DNA of 64,000 nt, from contig NZ_AP018207.1 in the NCBI RefSeq assembly GCF_002367995.1, positions 6,150,646 to 6,214,645 on the forward strand, read 5' to 3'. The notes beneath the pieces were generated by a model. It was not told where the DNA came from and made no database searches. It worked only from the letters and a program-made list of their open reading frames with translations. Made by a program: the position numbers and the translations under genes. This DNA is from Calothrix brevissima NIES-22 (lineage in GTDB: Bacteria > Cyanobacteriota > Cyanobacteriia > Cyanobacteriales > Nostocaceae). This document shows, piece after piece, positions 53,955 to 61,391 of the stretch; within the stretch, counting starts at the first letter, position 1; the number at the start of each line of letters is the position of its first letter.

Positions 53955-56900
53955 TTAAATCAATTGCTCAAGACCCAAATAGAGTGCCATATATTGAATG
54001 ACAGCCTCTTCATGACCTTGAAGTTCAGGGAGATAGATAGAGATTGCACTGCGTACAGCATCGGCAAAAGTCACATAATCCTGAGTTTTTGTCTGCACAA
54101 ATGGTTCTAACTTCTTGATCAGCTCCCAATTACTCTCAATATTGGCAGCCCTCATTGCTTTTTCTAATGGAGGCGCATTTTGGGTAGCTATCTCTGGTAA
54201 AATGCGACTGACAAAAGTGACACGGTGAAAGACTCGCCAACAAGAGGGCTTTTTATCGCCTTGATTGGCTTGGCGGAGTGCGATCGCGTTGGAATCATTA
54301 CTTTGTTCCAACCAAATCGGATCTACTATCTTGCCGAAAAAGTCTTCAAAGTTTTCTGTTGTTGGTTGCAAATAGAAAGTCATGAAGCGGTAAGCATCAA
54401 CTTTGCCTGGCTGTTTAATCGGATTTCCCAGGGCATCATACACGCCCCCTTGCTCAAGGTTATAACTCCCTTGATACTTTGCTTTGAGGGCATCTGTCTT
54501 GGCATAGAGTTGGATATCTCGTTCCCCTTCAACTTCGACTTCCAACGTAAAAGATTTCTCAGTCTCTCGTCCCTTCGCTTTCGTGGTGGACAAATGACCA
54601 CCAAACATGGCATCCAATTCAAAGCCCATCGACACAGGGCCAATGCTCAGTGAAAGATCGGCCGCACCGCCAGCCATGCCTTCAAAGGAATAGAAACCTG
54701 TTGTCGTTTCCGTAGTGGCTTCCAGCACATCCGTAGACTCGGAGAAAAACCCGCCATCCGCAGTCCAAACATAGGTATTTACCAAATTCCGAGTTGCTCT
54801 CTGTTTATCAGGTAGCTCGTTCAAAGAACCAGTTGCTTGATAGCTTACATTTTGGAAGGTCGAATACTGATCGTAATAGGTCGCCAACTCTTGCCGTTCT
54901 CGTTCAATGCGTTTTTTCATGCTATAAGCTTCAATGGGTTTAAAGTAACTCCACTGCCCATAGGTTGCCGCATTAGGATAGTGAGGATCGGGTTGAATAC
55001 TCCCATCTTCTTTTAAGCCAACCTTTCCATCCAGAGTTCCCTGCTTACTATAAGTGGGATTAATGGGGAAGGTAATGATATTCCAATCTTTAGGAATATC
55101 TGGATTGGGTAAGAATCGATAAGACACTAAAGAATTATTATGAGCTAACCGCAGAGCAAACACATCCATAGTATCTGACTGAACTAAGGCTAACCCAACA
55201 TTGGCAGGAATATAACGACGACCCACATAAGAGTTAATTTCTGAGCCAATTTTCTCCCACGCTCCCCAAGCTTGCAAACGACTCACTTTAGTTGTGTTAT
55301 AGCCATAACTCACATTGGCTTCACTGATTGTGCCTTGTGCAGAACTAAAGGCATTTTTTAAATGCACGTTTCCTTCTAGTTCTAAAATTTGTTTCTCGAC
55401 ACCCAAACCCACACTGATTTCGTCAGACACACCCACCGATCTTTTCATCTCAATGGACATATCAAAGCCACTTTCTTTAGAAGACGAGTAGATATATTTG
55501 ACTGTATCAGATTCAACTAACTGAATTGCACTAGCATTGTAGGGATCTACTCCTGCATCCGGTGTCATACTTTTTTCGGTGAGGTTTTCACTGGGTACAG
55601 GGGGCGCACCCTCAATATAGCCAATAATTTGGGGAGCAGCTTGTACCTGTCCAATCCATTCGGTAATTAAGTTGCCGACTTTATAGCCTGTCAACAAATG
55701 CCATTGACCATTTTTGATATAGCTATAACAGCGTTTTTGGATGCCGATTAAATTTCCTTTAATGTCGTACTGCAAGTCGGAATACTCTTGTACCCCAGGA
55801 CTGCTATGAATTGTATCGTGAAACTGAGTTTTCACCCCTGCTAGAGCAGAACGAATAATGGCTGTATCTTCACTAATGGGAGCCGTGGACAAAACAGACA
55901 TTGGTTTAGCATCGTTCAAACCCTGGGTTAAATGATTGCCAATCAAGGATTGATCGAACAGATCAGTCTGACTTTCTAAATCAAAAGTGTAGTTGGCGAT
56001 CAGGTCTTGTTTTTCGCCTTTAATACGGCTAAACAAATTATCCTGAATTTGTTCTTGAGTGCGGGCGACTTTCCAAATGCGAACTTCTTCCATTGTTCCC
56101 GCAAAGGGTTCTAAACAACTGCTGCCGACATTTTGAGCAATTCCTCCTAAGGTGAACTGTTTTTCGCCCCAACTGCTTTGAGGTGTAAAAGTTTCCATTG
56201 GTACGGGAATGCCATTTTGATACAGGGTTAAACTGGAGCCTTGGGGGTCAGGATTTTTAATCCATTGGGCAGCAATAATCACCGCATGGCTTTCTCCTTT
56301 CGAGTCGGAGGCAATATTACCTTCATTCTCTTCTAAACGCCACCAAGCCACTAGCCCTTTTTCTTGAGCATTGATCTTGATTCCCAAATTGGCTATATCC
56401 ACCACACTATTCCAGAGGCGAATTTCACTAATTACTCCTTGCAAGTAACTCGGTTGTGAGCTTTGATAGGTTTTACCGATTTCCAATTTTTGGGAATTGC
56501 GGTCTATGTCTGCGCCTTGATAAATTGAATAACCTGCGGCTTTTCGGTTGACATAAAAGCGAATATCAGCCCACTGATTGACGATGACATTGGGGAGATC
56601 GGCAGATCCTAGATTCTTGACTTCTGTTTGATATTGGCGGCTAACAGCAATTTTGTAAAACTGTCCCGTTCTTAGCACATCAGTGGATTTATAGATGTAG
56701 CTTTTTCCCTGTTTGTCTTCAAAGGCAAAGGCAATTTTGCCGTCGGTGTCAATATAAAGGGAATAAGGCACATTCCGATCGCTTCCATCTCCCAGTTTTC
56801 CCTTAGTCAACAGCCCTTGACGTTGACTCAATGTATTCACTTGCAAAAAGATTTCTATTGTCAAGTCTCGGTCTAAATCTAAGGTGGGATTGTGCTCACA

Positions 56901-59900
56901 TTCTAAGAAGCTATTGCCCTGAAATTGCAAAGCGTAAGATTGGTTATATACCGCAGATAAATGATGCCATTGGGCCATAGGAGCAGCTGCTTGAGATTTT
57001 TGGCACAGGTCGCCAACGCTGGCAAAGCTGTAAATTTGGCTTTCTTGGATTACGGAAGCAACCAAGGAAGGTTGCCCATAGATCTTGCCATGATAACCAT
57101 TAGGAGAGTAGTCTTTGGCGATGCCGCCTGTAAATTGCCAATAGGCGACTAAACCTGCTTCATTACCTGTGAGTCGGCGACTCATGTCGCTTTGAATTTC
57201 TGCTTCAGAGCGCACTTTATTCCAAATCCGCACTTCATCCAAACTGCCGCTATAATAACCTCCCGCATCAGTTCCTCCTAAACGAACGCTGGTAGTTGGC
57301 TGTATGGGTATGGTTTTACCAGTTTGGCTATGCCATAACTTGCCATTGAGATAAATTTTCATCTCTCCGGTAGCAGCATTTTTGGTGAATGCCCAATGAG
57401 ACCAAACCCCTTTGAAATCAGTAGCTTGGGCCGCTTTGGAAATGCGATCGTAAGAGTTGCCACTGGTGCCACAGTCAAAGTAGATTGTGCTGTTGCCCCA
57501 GGGGAGGTGAATTTCTATCACCTTGCTGTTGTTAGCATCAAAGGCTCCAAGTAAAGAGGCATCTTTGGGCTGTTTTGAGCCACCAAAAGCCCAAAAACTG
57601 ATAGTGATTTCGTTGCCGGTAGGGATGCTGGCGGTTGGGAGTTCGATATAGTCATCTACACCATCAAATTCGAGAGCAGACGAGCAATTGATACTCTGGG
57701 ACTGAATCCCTAATGTGTATTGGGATTGTGCGGAATTGTGATAAATTACACGGCTATTTTCCGCTAACTGTGCGGGACGAACCCATGTTTCTAGGGTTAA
57801 ATCTCCTTTGGCATCCAGATCAGAGAGTTTAGTGAGATCTCCAAGTCCTACATAGTCATCTTTGCCATCAAAGGCTAAGGCTCGACCGGGGGATTCTGCT
57901 ACCCATTGACAGGAACGGGTAGTTTCACTGTAATTGAAGACACCATTCTGGACATTTTTGCTACTACTACCCGGCTGGAAGATGAATTGCAGAGAACCAT
58001 TGCTGAGGGAGTTAGTGGTGCGGTTGTTGGTAGTCCATGCGTTGTAGTCGTAGGGGATGAGATAGATGGCTGTGTCTGCGGGGATGTTGAGATCGGCAGG
58101 GGTGATGGGAATAGTGTCTTTTGTGGCATTGGTCTGTGCGCTGACAACGACTTGCTGATTTTCGAGTGAGAGAATTGAACCTTGGGGGAGGGTTTGTTTG
58201 ACTTTTTGCATCAACGTTAAACTGTTAATGCCTTGACCAACGACTGATTGGGCTAATTTACCAATAAAGATGGGTTGACTGGCATCGCCATTGAGGATGT
58301 GACAAAATTGTTCTACTTCTCGTGGAAGATTGCTCCAAGTTTCTTCGAGTCCGGTGACTTGATTGCTAATTGTCAGGGTGCAGGTTTCGGGGGTTGCACT
58401 GTCGGTAATGGTGAAGGTGGCGCGATCGCATTCTGGTTCAGCTGAGCGGGCTGTTGCAATCAGTTTACCGATTTCTGCTGCTAATAAATACCTTGCTTTA
58501 GTGGTATTGGTATCATAATAAGTAACAAAAAATTGATCGTCCAAGCCTCGGAAATATAAGGCTAGTTTTCCTGTCGCACTATTAACCAGCAAAGGGGTGT
58601 CTTTAGTATAAGCAAAGTTGAGTAATCCCCCAGCTACAGTCAGTCCGCAAGGATCTATATGCAACAAGGGCATAGGTATGGCAATTTCCCCTTGAATGCC
58701 AGAGCGCAATAGTTCTAACTCAGTTTCTTGATTTTCCAGTTGTACTTTTTGCAGCGCTAACTGACTTTCTTTGATTTTGAGTTGATCGCGATCGCTGTAT
58801 AGTTTATTCAACTCATTAATAGTGTTTGTTAATTCGGTCTGTTTGTTGCGGATGGTGTTTTCTAGATCTGTAATGGCGGCAGTAGGACGATCGGTTTTGG
58901 TAAAGGTGAAGACCCCTTTTTGCATAGGACTGCTGAGATCGGCCTGAATCGAGAAATTATAGTCATTGCCATTACCTTTCGTCAGAGACAACGTCCCTGC
59001 TACTCTTTCCCACCAACTATCAACCTTGAAAGAACCATCATAAATTAAGCCACGCGAGCGATCGGAATTAAGCAGACCCCACCAAGAATTATTTACTGAC
59101 TTTGTGGTTAAATGATTGAATGGGCAAAGTCTCTTAGAACCTTGATAGCCACCCAAAACAGTCCAATATTGACCATCATCACGATCGTTTCTCGGCTGGT
59201 GCGATAAATTTCCATTGCCGTCGGCTGTCCAGTAATTTTGATTACCGTTCACCTGAATCCGGAAAAAATAATTAAAGATGTCCAGCTTCCGATTATTTAA
59301 GTCGTTTGTTAAGGACTGAATTTCCGTTTCTAGCCTTGCTTTTTGTACCTCTAAGGTAGCAATTCTTGGTGTGGATGCTTTTAAGCTAGAAATCTCAATT
59401 TCCAACTGATGAATACTGGCTTTTAAAGTTGCAATTTCTTCTTGTAAGCGGCTGGCTGCATCTAAATCTTGGTTCACCGCATTACCAGTCTTTAGACTGG
59501 GTAGAACGAGATTATCAGGAATTTGGGCAATTTTACCTTCCCGGGAAACAGCAAAATCTAAGGCAGCAATGAAATTATTATCTGTTGATGGCGAATTTTC
59601 ATTACTGGTGCCAACAGTCAACATCACCCTGGCATTACGTTTAACGGGTTTTTCCTGTTGATCGTAACCTGTGGCAACTTTTTCTTGTTGGTGATATAGC
59701 AGAGCCGATAAACCCGATGTAATATTGCGTTGTTCTGAACCAGATTTTAGCTGAAAACTGTTGCGCTGGATGCCGGGACGATCGCCAACGGGCGCATCTG
59801 ATTTGACCCAAGTTGCACCTTTGATGCTAACATGAACGGCGTTTTCAGTTTGGTCATAGAGGCGATCGCCAAATCCTTCATCACAACGCCAATAAGACCA

Positions 59901-61391
59901 TAATCCTGGTTCATCACCAACTAAACGATGGTTCAGATCTGCCTGAATTTCAGCTTGGCTACGGCAACGATTCCAAATCCTGACTTCATCAATTTTGCCA
60001 TCGAAAAAAGCATCAGACCACCAATTACTCTTGCCTATGTAGTTCTGATTCCGAATTATGATTCGGGGGAGATGAAATTTTTGCTGTCCTATAATTAGAC
60101 CATCTTTATATACAGTTGCATTGCCAGTTCGATCCATTGTGACGGTAAGATGAATCCACTGGTCAAGTTCTAGGGTATTAGGAATCTCGATAAAGTTTTG
60201 AACATCCCCTTGATAAACATGAAAACTCAGATTGTTTGTCTGTCCCAAGTTTGCTAAAAGAATATTGTCTAAACCACTGCCATTTCCAAAGTCAAAGATA
60301 CGACTCCACAAGCCAAAGCTACGGTAATAAACCCAAGTTTCAATGGTGAAAGCTTGAAAGAGATTTTCGGGCAAGGAAGGCAGTTCTATATAATCATCTT
60401 GTCCATCAAAATTGAGAGCAGATTCCGCATATCCAGACTTACTGACTAGAGGAATTAGTGGCGATCCAGTAAAAGAATCTATTCCTGGTTGACGTTCTAA
60501 AACGGAGCTTTGATATTGGGGATCTGGACTGGTATAAAGCTGGGTGCCTTTAGTATTAAATAATCCATCGCTTGACCGTTCAACATTAAACGAATCAATT
60601 AGTCCGGTTTTACTGTTATGGGTGAACAGTTGCCAACGTTGAAGTTCAGCAATTTGAGTGGGCAACAATAAGACACTAAAGCGTCCTGCCTTTAAGTTGC
60701 GAATAAAATCTAATTCTTGAGTGGGTTCAAAAAACGGCTGTTGCTCTAAGTCTTTTGCTCCTAAGCCATCTTTATTGGTTTGAGGGTTGTATTTGTGGCG
60801 ACTGCGTTGATAACGCACTTCCATTTTTAGCCTTAATTCTGTCCCTGTTAAAACATAGCGGTCTACGAGCAAAGTTTCATTGACTAAGGGGACTTTATTT
60901 TGTGCTTTATCTAAAACCAAGTTGCCAGCTTTGTCTTTTTTGTAAAGCATGTCCTGGTGGGTTTGATCGATAGCTTGGCGAAATAAATAAATGAATTTAC
61001 CGTCTGATAAAACTTGGAATGAGGCTTCAGCAGTAAAGCGGGCAGTAGTTGATAAGAATGGGTCTATTTCTTCATAACGTAATGTTCCTGTTTTGGCTTC
61101 TTCTCTTGTGCCTTTTTTCACTAAAGGCATTTTAACATTCGGCAGAATAGAGTAACCTACTTGGACAATTTCGTTAGGAAAACTAATTTCTTGAGGATTA
61201 TCGAGCCAATAGTTAACATCAAGAGAATTTTTGGTTTTTGATTGGGTATTTTCTAGGTCTAAAACGGAGTAGTAGATGCGCCTTGTTGCGTCGATAGCAA
61301 AGGCAATAATTGTACCTTTGTGATTAATTTGTGTAGTATATTTGTAGGTTTTGTCGGTGTATGTTTTGACGAAATTGTTCAGGATGCTCAT
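53955..61391 (-). CDS. Giant protein with nested LamG domains and split coiled coil
   Basis: A 2478-residue protein without signal peptide or membrane helix. Residues 1-300 are beta-rich and unrecognised. LamG 1 (about 324-515) runs from ALNFDGQDDYIEL to IDEVRIWNRCRSQAEIQ and YWRCDEGFGD. Two coiled-coil arms (about 645-705 and 840-890) flank a beta domain (FRIQVNGNQNYWTADGNGN). LamG 2 starts at about 1167 (ALAFDGKDDYVGL) but its halves are separated by LamG 3 (about 1232-1440, ALEFDGVDDYIEL) and LamG 4 (about 1484-1712); it ends with SLTLYQNGIPV and MEEVRIWKVARTQ near 1775. Residues 1790-2478 match no domain I know. LamG domains bind glycans; the function of the whole is unknown. Confidence 0.8.
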   Translation of the reverse strand: MSILNNFVKTYTDKTYKYTTQINHKGTIIAFAIDATRRIYYSVLDLENTQSKTKNSLDVNYWLDNPQEISFPNEIVQVGYSILPNVKMPLVKKGTREEAKTGTLRYEEIDPFLSTTARFTAEASFQVLSDGKFIYLFRQAIDQTHQDMLYKKDKAGNLVLDKAQNKVPLVNETLLVDRYVLTGTELRLKMEVRYQRSRHKYNPQTNKDGLGAKDLEQQPFFEPTQELDFIRNLKAGRFSVLLLPTQIAELQRWQLFTHNSKTGLIDSFNVERSSDGLFNTKGTQLYTSPDPQYQSSVLERQPGIDSFTGSPLIPLVSKSGYAESALNFDGQDDYIELPSLPENLFQAFTIETWVYYRSFGLWSRIFDFGNGSGLDNILLANLGQTNNLSFHVYQGDVQNFIEIPNTLELDQWIHLTVTMDRTGNATVYKDGLIIGQQKFHLPRIIIRNQNYIGKSNWWSDAFFDGKIDEVRIWNRCRSQAEIQADLNHRLVGDEPGLWSYWRCDEGFGDRLYDQTENAVHVSIKGATWVKSDAPVGDRPGIQRNSFQLKSGSEQRNITSGLSALLYHQQEKVATGYDQQEKPVKRNARVMLTVGTSNENSPSTDNNFIAALDFAVSREGKIAQIPDNLVLPSLKTGNAVNQDLDAASRLQEEIATLKASIHQLEIEISSLKASTPRIATLEVQKARLETEIQSLTNDLNNRKLDIFNYFFRIQVNGNQNYWTADGNGNLSHQPRNDRDDGQYWTVLGGYQGSKRLCPFNHLTTKSVNNSWWGLLNSDRSRGLIYDGSFKVDSWWERVAGTLSLTKGNGNDYNFSIQADLSSPMQKGVFTFTKTDRPTAAITDLENTIRNKQTELTNTINELNKLYSDRDQLKIKESQLALQKVQLENQETELELLRSGIQGEIAIPMPLLHIDPCGLTVAGGLLNFAYTKDTPLLVNSATGKLALYFRGLDDQFFVTYYDTNTTKARYLLAAEIGKLIATARSAEPECDRATFTITDSATPETCTLTISNQVTGLEETWSNLPREVEQFCHILNGDASQPIFIGKLAQSVVGQGINSLTLMQKVKQTLPQGSILSLENQQVVVSAQTNATKDTIPITPADLNIPADTAIYLIPYDYNAWTTNNRTTNSLSNGSLQFIFQPGSSSKNVQNGVFNYSETTRSCQWVAESPGRALAFDGKDDYVGLGDLTKLSDLDAKGDLTLETWVRPAQLAENSRVIYHNSAQSQYTLGIQSQSINCSSALEFDGVDDYIELPTASIPTGNEITISFWAFGGSKQPKDASLLGAFDANNSKVIEIHLPWGNSTIYFDCGTSGNSYDRISKAAQATDFKGVWSHWAFTKNAATGEMKIYLNGKLWHSQTGKTIPIQPTTSVRLGGTDAGGYYSGSLDEVRIWNKVRSEAEIQSDMSRRLTGNEAGLVAYWQFTGGIAKDYSPNGYHGKIYGQPSLVASVIQESQIYSFASVGDLCQKSQAAAPMAQWHHLSAVYNQSYALQFQGNSFLECEHNPTLDLDRDLTIEIFLQVNTLSQRQGLLTKGKLGDGSDRNVPYSLYIDTDGKIAFAFEDKQGKSYIYKSTDVLRTGQFYKIAVSRQYQTEVKNLGSADLPNVIVNQWADIRFYVNRKAAGYSIYQGADIDRNSQKLEIGKTYQSSQPSYLQGVISEIRLWNSVVDIANLGIKINAQEKGLVAWWRLEENEGNIASDSKGESHAVIIAAQWIKNPDPQGSSLTLYQNGIPVPMETFTPQSSWGEKQFTLGGIAQNVGSSCLEPFAGTMEEVRIWKVARTQEQIQDNLFSRIKGEKQDLIANYTFDLESQTDLFDQSLIGNHLTQGLNDAKPMSVLSTAPISEDTAIIRSALAGVKTQFHDTIHSSPGVQEYSDLQYDIKGNLIGIQKRCYSYIKNGQWHLLTGYKVGNLITEWIGQVQAAPQIIGYIEGAPPVPSENLTEKSMTPDAGVDPYNASAIQLVESDTVKYIYSSSKESGFDMSIEMKRSVGVSDEISVGLGVEKQILELEGNVHLKNAFSSAQGTISEANVSYGYNTTKVSRLQAWGAWEKIGSEINSYVGRRYIPANVGLALVQSDTMDVFALRLAHNNSLVSYRFLPNPDIPKDWNIITFPINPTYSKQGTLDGKVGLKEDGSIQPDPHYPNAATYGQWSYFKPIEAYSMKKRIERERQELATYYDQYSTFQNVSYQATGSLNELPDKQRATRNLVNTYVWTADGGFFSESTDVLEATTETTTGFYSFEGMAGGAADLSLSIGPVSMGFELDAMFGGHLSTTKAKGRETEKSFTLEVEVEGERDIQLYAKTDALKAKYQGSYNLEQGGVYDALGNPIKQPGKVDAYRFMTFYLQPTTENFEDFFGKIVDPIWLEQSNDSNAIALRQANQGDKKPSCWRVFHRVTFVSRILPEIATQNAPPLEKAMRAANIESNWELIKKLEPFVQTKTQDYVTFADAVRSAISIYLPELQGHEEAVIQYMALYLGLEQLI

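Follow-up and report, generated by a model that had tools for sequence, protein, structure and literature searches.

The closest described relatives of the domain studied here are the concanavalin A-like LamG domains of Pfam family PF13385 (Laminin_G_3), together with the LG domains of pentraxin and PAPP-A. Ordinary LamG domains are continuous, and the unsplit relatives described below agree with this. We analysed a 64,000-nucleotide stretch of Calothrix brevissima NIES-22 (contig NZ_AP018207.1, positions 6,150,646 to 6,214,645; hereafter the window) in a genome of 9.26 Mb. One open reading frame (ORF) of the window encodes a protein of 2478 residues with five Laminin_G_3 stretches by Pfam, and in this protein one LamG domain is split by others of its own family. 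Such nesting had been proposed in an earlier note made from the sequence alone.

Insertions are found in 20% of ECOD multidomain proteins, and cyanobacterial rpoC2 carries a six-level nest, with recursive hybrid-motif insertions in its Si3 region, according to PMC13114784. Given these figures, the view in the earlier note that two insertions into one host domain are rare needs qualifying. The LamG nest resembles that described for Si3 in running several levels deep, in consisting mostly of one motif type and in having hosts with several inserts; unlike Si3, which has another fold and lies within an essential enzyme, it occurs in a sparse gene whose insert number varies among near relatives. 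Since recursive insertion is already known from rpoC2, LamG-in-LamG nesting is a new form of it and not a new kind. The same source reports inserted domains to be smaller than their hosts in 77% of events (medians of 115 and 199 residues); the inserts here, of 215 and 232 residues, are larger than the host of about 178 residues and belong to its family. Among the papers listed in searches of the open-licence literature of PubMed Central (PMC), none concerned a LamG domain nested in a LamG domain or this protein family.

One LamG domain split by two complete LamG domains

The motifs quoted in favour of nesting were all found in the order claimed: YTLGIQSQS (residues 1225-1233), ALEFDG (from 1239), YWQFTGG (1417-1423), IYSFASVG (from 1453), AQWHHLSAVY (1473-1482), YALQFQGN (from 1486), WWRLEENEG (1683-1691), SLTLYQNG (from 1720) and MEEVRIWK (from 1767). 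The gap between WHHLSAVY and SLTLYQNG, put at about 230 residues, measured 237. We then scanned the five pieces of the split region against Pfam one by one. Residues 1160-1238 matched positions 1-53 of the 151 in PF13385 (E 6e-5; 23.6 bits, the cut-off being 27.6), and residues 1712-1860 matched positions 90-151 (E 2e-8). Between them, residues 1236-1450 form a full LamG domain (LamG3; positions 1-151, E 7e-25) and residues 1484-1715 a nearly full one (LamG4; positions 11-144, E 8e-14). The 42-residue middle piece between the inserts had no Pfam match, leaving PF13385 positions 54-89 unmatched when it was scanned alone; a LamG model made from members of the family placed residues 1465-1485 at its positions 90-110 of 174, with just 6 bits. 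Read along the protein, the order is thus 1-53, LamG3, the unmatched middle, LamG4 and 90-151, with the host halves complementary on one PF13385 model and LamG3 and LamG4 as insertions. Because the middle piece scores weakly, the case for a split host rests also on relatives and on uninterrupted homologues.

An AlphaFold2 model (predicted local distance difference test, pLDDT, 87) contains LamG3 and LamG4 as complete jelly rolls between the host strands. The host strands mostly have pLDDT of at least 85, and their order fits a single LamG domain; four sequential, unsplit jelly rolls, the outcome that the earlier note had named as fatal to its proposal, are not what the model shows.

Four relatives carry three continuous LamG domains, none of them split: P0005 (genome G038), L111 (Polyangia), L112 (Microcystis) and L115 (Cyanothece). 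An IEGxPPVP motif lies 114-120 residues past the last LamG domain of these proteins (120 in L112) and 140 residues past the host LamG of the window protein. When the host pieces A, M (middle) and C were aligned singly to the last LamG, with the targets extended 40 residues beyond the domain, L112 gave the best fit of the four (A at 4-61, z 9.2; M at 74-91, z 6.1; C at 92-172, z 19.3). Piece A was also placed in L115 (A at 3-59, z 7.0; M at 80-91, z 8.2; C at 134-168, z 13.0) and in P0005 (A at 3-31, z 4.5; M at 87-97, z 5.5; C at 97-172, z 18.9); in L111 it was not significant (z 1.3), with M at z 4.8 and C at z 12.8. Across the four, M ranged from z 4.8 to 8.2 and C from z 12.8 to 19.3. Other LamG domains of the unsplit relatives match as well, above all piece C (z 4.9-18.7), and A also aligns to the first LamG of L112 (z 9.3); we therefore chose the last LamG for its position and for the joint fit of the three pieces. 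In these alignments it represents the unoccupied site in natural form, the window pieces mapping to it in order.

Profile coordinates, structure model and homologues agree that host segments flank complete inserted domains, the A1-B-A2 arrangement of a domain insertion. We conclude that two complete LamG domains divide one PF13385 LamG domain into three pieces and that this architecture is real and recurrent.

Recursion, and gain or loss of inserts, among relatives

A scan of genome contigs with a profile of the C-terminal domain gave 120 relatives, 80 of which were kept: 42 from Cyanobacteriota, 21 from Actinomycetota, five from Pseudomonadota, three from Bacteroidota, two from KSB1, one each from Chloroflexota, Planctomycetota, Acidobacteriota, Myxococcota and Lujinxingia, and two without a phylum. 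Within the window's own phylum the family was present in 12 of 386 sampled genomes. The architecture was read in 75 proteins (from 70 loci among the 80 kept, plus five others, with two genomes counted twice), using one LamG model with a 5-bit floor, so that single assignments, especially that of L090, may be wrong. Nested LamG domains were found in 55 of the 75, or in 53 of 73 without the doubles; 42 of the 55 have the two-insert pattern, eight have only their second site split, and in five the host is split and the insert is itself broken. The remaining 20 comprise proteins truncated where a contig ends, proteins that could not be read clearly and unnested ones (at least four, the proteins listed above).

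The inserted LamG is itself interrupted in ten proteins. By the family LamG model, three LamG domains lie one within another, as A(B(C)B)A, in L089 (Betaproteobacteria) and L097 (Yoonia). The Pfam check covers L097, with PF13385 positions 16-89, 2-89, 2-150, an end piece of B without a LamG match, and 90-150; L089 rests on the family model. An inner gap of 46-77 residues without a LamG match interrupts the insert in L043, L044, L083 and L084 (by Pfam 4-90, 2-92, 93-151 and 90-151 in L084). In three Nodosilinea relatives (L046, L054 and L095; residues about 1550-1855), LamG4 has an interruption of 127-137 residues at another place, close to model positions 122-149. The nest of L090 was poorly resolved by the family model. 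The Pfam 89/90 break in L097 and L084 is the second insertion site of the window protein. The loop after the WHHLSAVY strand is the commonest slot, and it is reused inside an insert in two relatives.

Insert number also differs between close relatives. The copy of Nostoc sp. CMAA1605 (L036), which of the named relatives found is the closest (C-terminal identity 89%), is sister to the window gene in the C-terminal tree (support 100/100) and shares 86-89% DNA identity with it over the aligned parts. It carries an extra insert of about 200 residues in the third host piece, which is LamG-like (E 2.8e-5; L036:1730-2377). This third insert is present in L036, L037 and L038 and absent from the window protein, L039-L042 and the paralogue encoded in the same genome; well-supported branches of that tree force at least two changes, so that a whole nested domain has been either gained or lost recently. 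In a tree of 184 domains, LamG3-type and LamG1-type domains were scattered and most LamG4-type domains grouped (at least 8, 8 and 4 changes required by well-supported branches); when trees for 20 proteins were compared by their splits, LamG3 and LamG4 could not be told apart. These patterns are suggestive only of an exchange of LamG3 between lineages.

The family forms a natural series, with 0, 1, 2 or 3 inserts, three LamG domains nested, and insert presence varying between sister genes, in which one can ask how a domain tolerates hosting and how nests arise and vanish.

The C-terminal domain and a putative pore

Neither NCBIfam nor the PDB sequences gave a match to the C-terminal domain, whose best PHROGs match was at E 0.07. 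Pfam gave sub-threshold matches, DUF5820 at E 0.011 for the window protein and, as the best among 49 C-termini, Gly-zipper in one (3.5e-5), DUF3482 in two (3.5e-4) and DUF5820 in four (0.009). The region, called unrecognised in the earlier note, has no established family. Eight of the twelve positions of the family signature IEGAPPVPSENL are invariant in 49 aligned members, and three more are at least 90% conserved. A Gly/Ala-rich hydrophobic loop separates the two halves of the C-terminal domain in seven of the 49 (L041, L042, L043, L044, L060, L067 and L069), the window protein not among them; L083, a Hormoscilla relative, has stop codons in the match frame of its C-terminal stretch (L083:10001-11943).

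The AlphaFold2 model of this domain has two long, mostly amphipathic hairpins. Their four strands gave fractions of 0.0062, 0.0004, 0.0012 and 0.074 in an alternation test, compared with 0.30-0.81 in four controls, so that three of the four lie beyond shuffles. The hairpins are rich in S/T/G/A (38-51% against 26%) and nearly free of proline (0.1-0.2% against 8.4%). Judged by their titles, the 50 Foldseek matches listed belong to secretins or to proteins forming beta-barrel pores, save that the title of 6u4p leaves its molecule unnamed. In its long hairpins and local matches the domain thus resembles beta-barrel pore proteins such as secretins, alpha-hemolysin and aerolysin. MACPF/CDC proteins likewise have two hairpins, with four strands per subunit; unlike them, the domain has no MACPF match among the 12 Pfam families that the 49 C-termini matched at E 0.05, nor does an MACPF title occur in either of the two lists of structural matches, as far as the 50 listed in each.

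Five distant relatives have a gene for a protein of 230-289 residues upstream of the giant gene (Table 1), at most 80 bases away in four and about 1.1 kb away in L110. A five-row profile of the small protein best matched sea-anemone actinoporins, weakly (E 0.005), with no Pfam family above the cut-off. Aegerolysins share the actinoporin fold. The arrangement recalls the two-part pores of aegerolysin and MACPF (PMC9505663, PMC10366546); the match is weak, and no significant match to such a partner was found in the six-frame translation of the window or in its genome, the genome search being without a positive control. The upstream gene hints at a two-part system in these five relatives.

We propose, with an even chance of being right, that the giant protein is modular and lectin-like, its binding modules being joined to a putative pore-forming tail. 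The shared frame consists of the N-terminal domain, one split host LamG and the C-terminal domain; the ligand-binding modules at its fixed slots (LamG1, the coiled-coil module and one to three LamG domains in host-LamG loops) would recognise glycans or lipids of a target surface, and the host LamG would serve as a mounting frame that grips each insert at its two ends. With its two hairpins, the C-terminal domain would oligomerise into a beta-barrel pore. No export signal was evident by eye, as the earlier note had said. A crude screen for hydrophobicity in the 45 N-terminal residues nevertheless flagged the window protein among 10 of 26 complete members; by eye, a beta-strand-like stretch accounted for the flag in most of these. 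Because no signal peptide is evident, release would probably be by lysis or a non-classical route. What weighs against the pore is that the Foldseek matches were local, with no whole-fold match to a pore protein among those listed. The suggestion of a toxin-like or lysis-released agent is accordingly plausible from the hairpins and the upstream gene and, for want of a fold-level pore-former match, unproven.

A broader proposal, possible and on balance doubtful, takes the host LamG for a socket shaped by evolution, whose loops accept whole domains recursively and reversibly and which would supply the targeting of a new kind of giant lectin-guided beta-barrel pore protein that has spread horizontally among bacterial phyla. 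If so, binding modules could come, go or nest while the frame stays intact. The C-terminal domain, an unnamed family in several phyla, may be a new pore-forming fold.

The same nesting would also suit an adhesin or matrix lectin that glues cells or polysaccharide, its hairpins forming an oligomeric beta structure or fibre and no pore. LamG, ricin-like, PLAT and FG-GAP modules are of ligand-binding or adhesion types, many hosts are by name cyanobacteria or actinomycetes, groups with a filamentous life, and the lack of a whole-fold pore match would be expected; yet neither a signal peptide nor a surface anchor is evident by eye, and the S/T/G/A-rich, nearly proline-free hairpins and the hydrophobic loop of seven C-termini (not the window's) fit it poorly, and we consider this reading rather unlikely. 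An intracellular protein, for example a scaffold or polysaccharide-granule binder that is not exported, would explain why no signal peptide is evident by eye and why the gene stands alone; at neither of the two plasmid copies viewed was a neighbour named as a secretion gene. It appears improbable, since carbohydrate- or lipid-binding module types and module turnover would better suit a target outside the cell, and since sparse occurrence in the phylum and eight plasmid records are unlike a housekeeping role. A reading without any split domain, in which the pieces would be degenerate or partial LamG domains in tandem, is hardly credible: pieces A and M score weakly alone, but the complementary profile coordinates, breakpoints recurring in relatives, uninterrupted homologues and confidently modelled host strands all speak against it.

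Layout, variable slots and neighbourhood of the gene

Table 1. Features of the 2478-residue protein and its gene (positions in the window), and the upstream small gene of five relatives (positions in their own loci)
Feature	Residues	Position	Strand	Remarks
Whole ORF	1-2478	53955..61391	-	ATG start, no internal stop (ORF listing and translation)
Conserved N-terminal domain	1-315	60447..61391	-	Median identity 50%, 17 relatives
LamG1, uninterrupted	316-485	59937..60446	-	PF13385 1-151, E 9e-32
Coiled-coil-like segments and variable module	~645-705 and ~850-905; module ~706-850	58677..59459	-	Limits by eye
Host LamG piece A	1166-1234	57690..57896	-	PF13385 1-53; host strands in model
Inserted LamG3 (site 1)	1235-1449	57045..57689	-	
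Host LamG middle piece (M)	1450-1485	56937..57044	-	Holds WHHLSAVY
Inserted LamG4 (site 2)	1486-1717	56241..56936	-	
Host LamG piece C	1718-1790	56022..56240	-	PF13385 90-151
Conserved C-terminal domain	1862-2478	53958..55808	-	Median identity 48%; AlphaFold2 pLDDT 82.1
Family signature IEGAPPVPSENL	1926-1937	55581..55616	-	
Long beta hairpin 1	1954-2040	55272..55532	-	Model strands 93-130, 143-179; alternation test
Long beta hairpin 2	2222-2287	54531..54728	-	Model strands 361-389, 392-426; alternation test
Upstream small gene		L105:201-1067; L107:4301-5002; L108:4378-5073; L110:3048-3737; L113:4241-4963		

The N-terminal domain had no significant match in Pfam or the PDB (best PDB E 0.13), and the whole protein matched one PDB sequence, an S-layer-domain protein, on LamG1. 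After the two terminal domains, median identity of the window protein to the 17 relatives, two of which are without LamG3, was highest in host piece C (46%) and residues 545-645 (44%), followed by host piece A and LamG4 (37% each), residues 920-1165 (33%), the host middle piece (31%), LamG1 (30%), LamG3 (29%) and the coiled-coil module (residues 706-850; 21%).

The coiled-coil-like segments of the window protein gave weak coiled-coil-type Pfam matches. The slot between these stretches was placed by eye, and in ten relatives scanned it holds a module in five and gave no match in the other five. The modules are PLAT in L040 (L040:5210-7297, E 1e-16), seven FG-GAP stretches in L084 (L084:6146-8392, E 2e-89), ricin-type in P0005 (E 2e-14) and, below the cut-off, ricin-type in L047 (E 8e-5) and crystallin in the paralogue (E 5e-4).

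Clustering of 804 neighbouring ORFs from 73 loci gave no neighbour common to most loci, and a conserved operon was rejected; the largest cluster covers 14 of the 73 (flanks of L036-L115; longest example L111:739-4371). Relatives occur on eight plasmid records. One plasmid copy of the family adjoins a Tn3-family transposase and a recombinase; next to another are an integrase and a transposase. Where a gene is listed for the plasmid copy, as in five cases, its name is LamG, or LamG-like jellyroll fold, domain-containing protein. The C-terminal domain had no match at E 0.01 in 50,697 phage records that would point to a phage origin; PHROGs matches of the LamG parts were mostly to families without an assigned function, and one weak match was to a virion structural family.

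The paralogue in the same genome, of 3668 residues (L031:8354-19360), lies on a 190-kb contig and has a longer C-terminus with two extra LamG domains. Adjoining it is an ORF of 1712 residues (L031:2559-7697), which we take to be filamentous-haemagglutinin-like.
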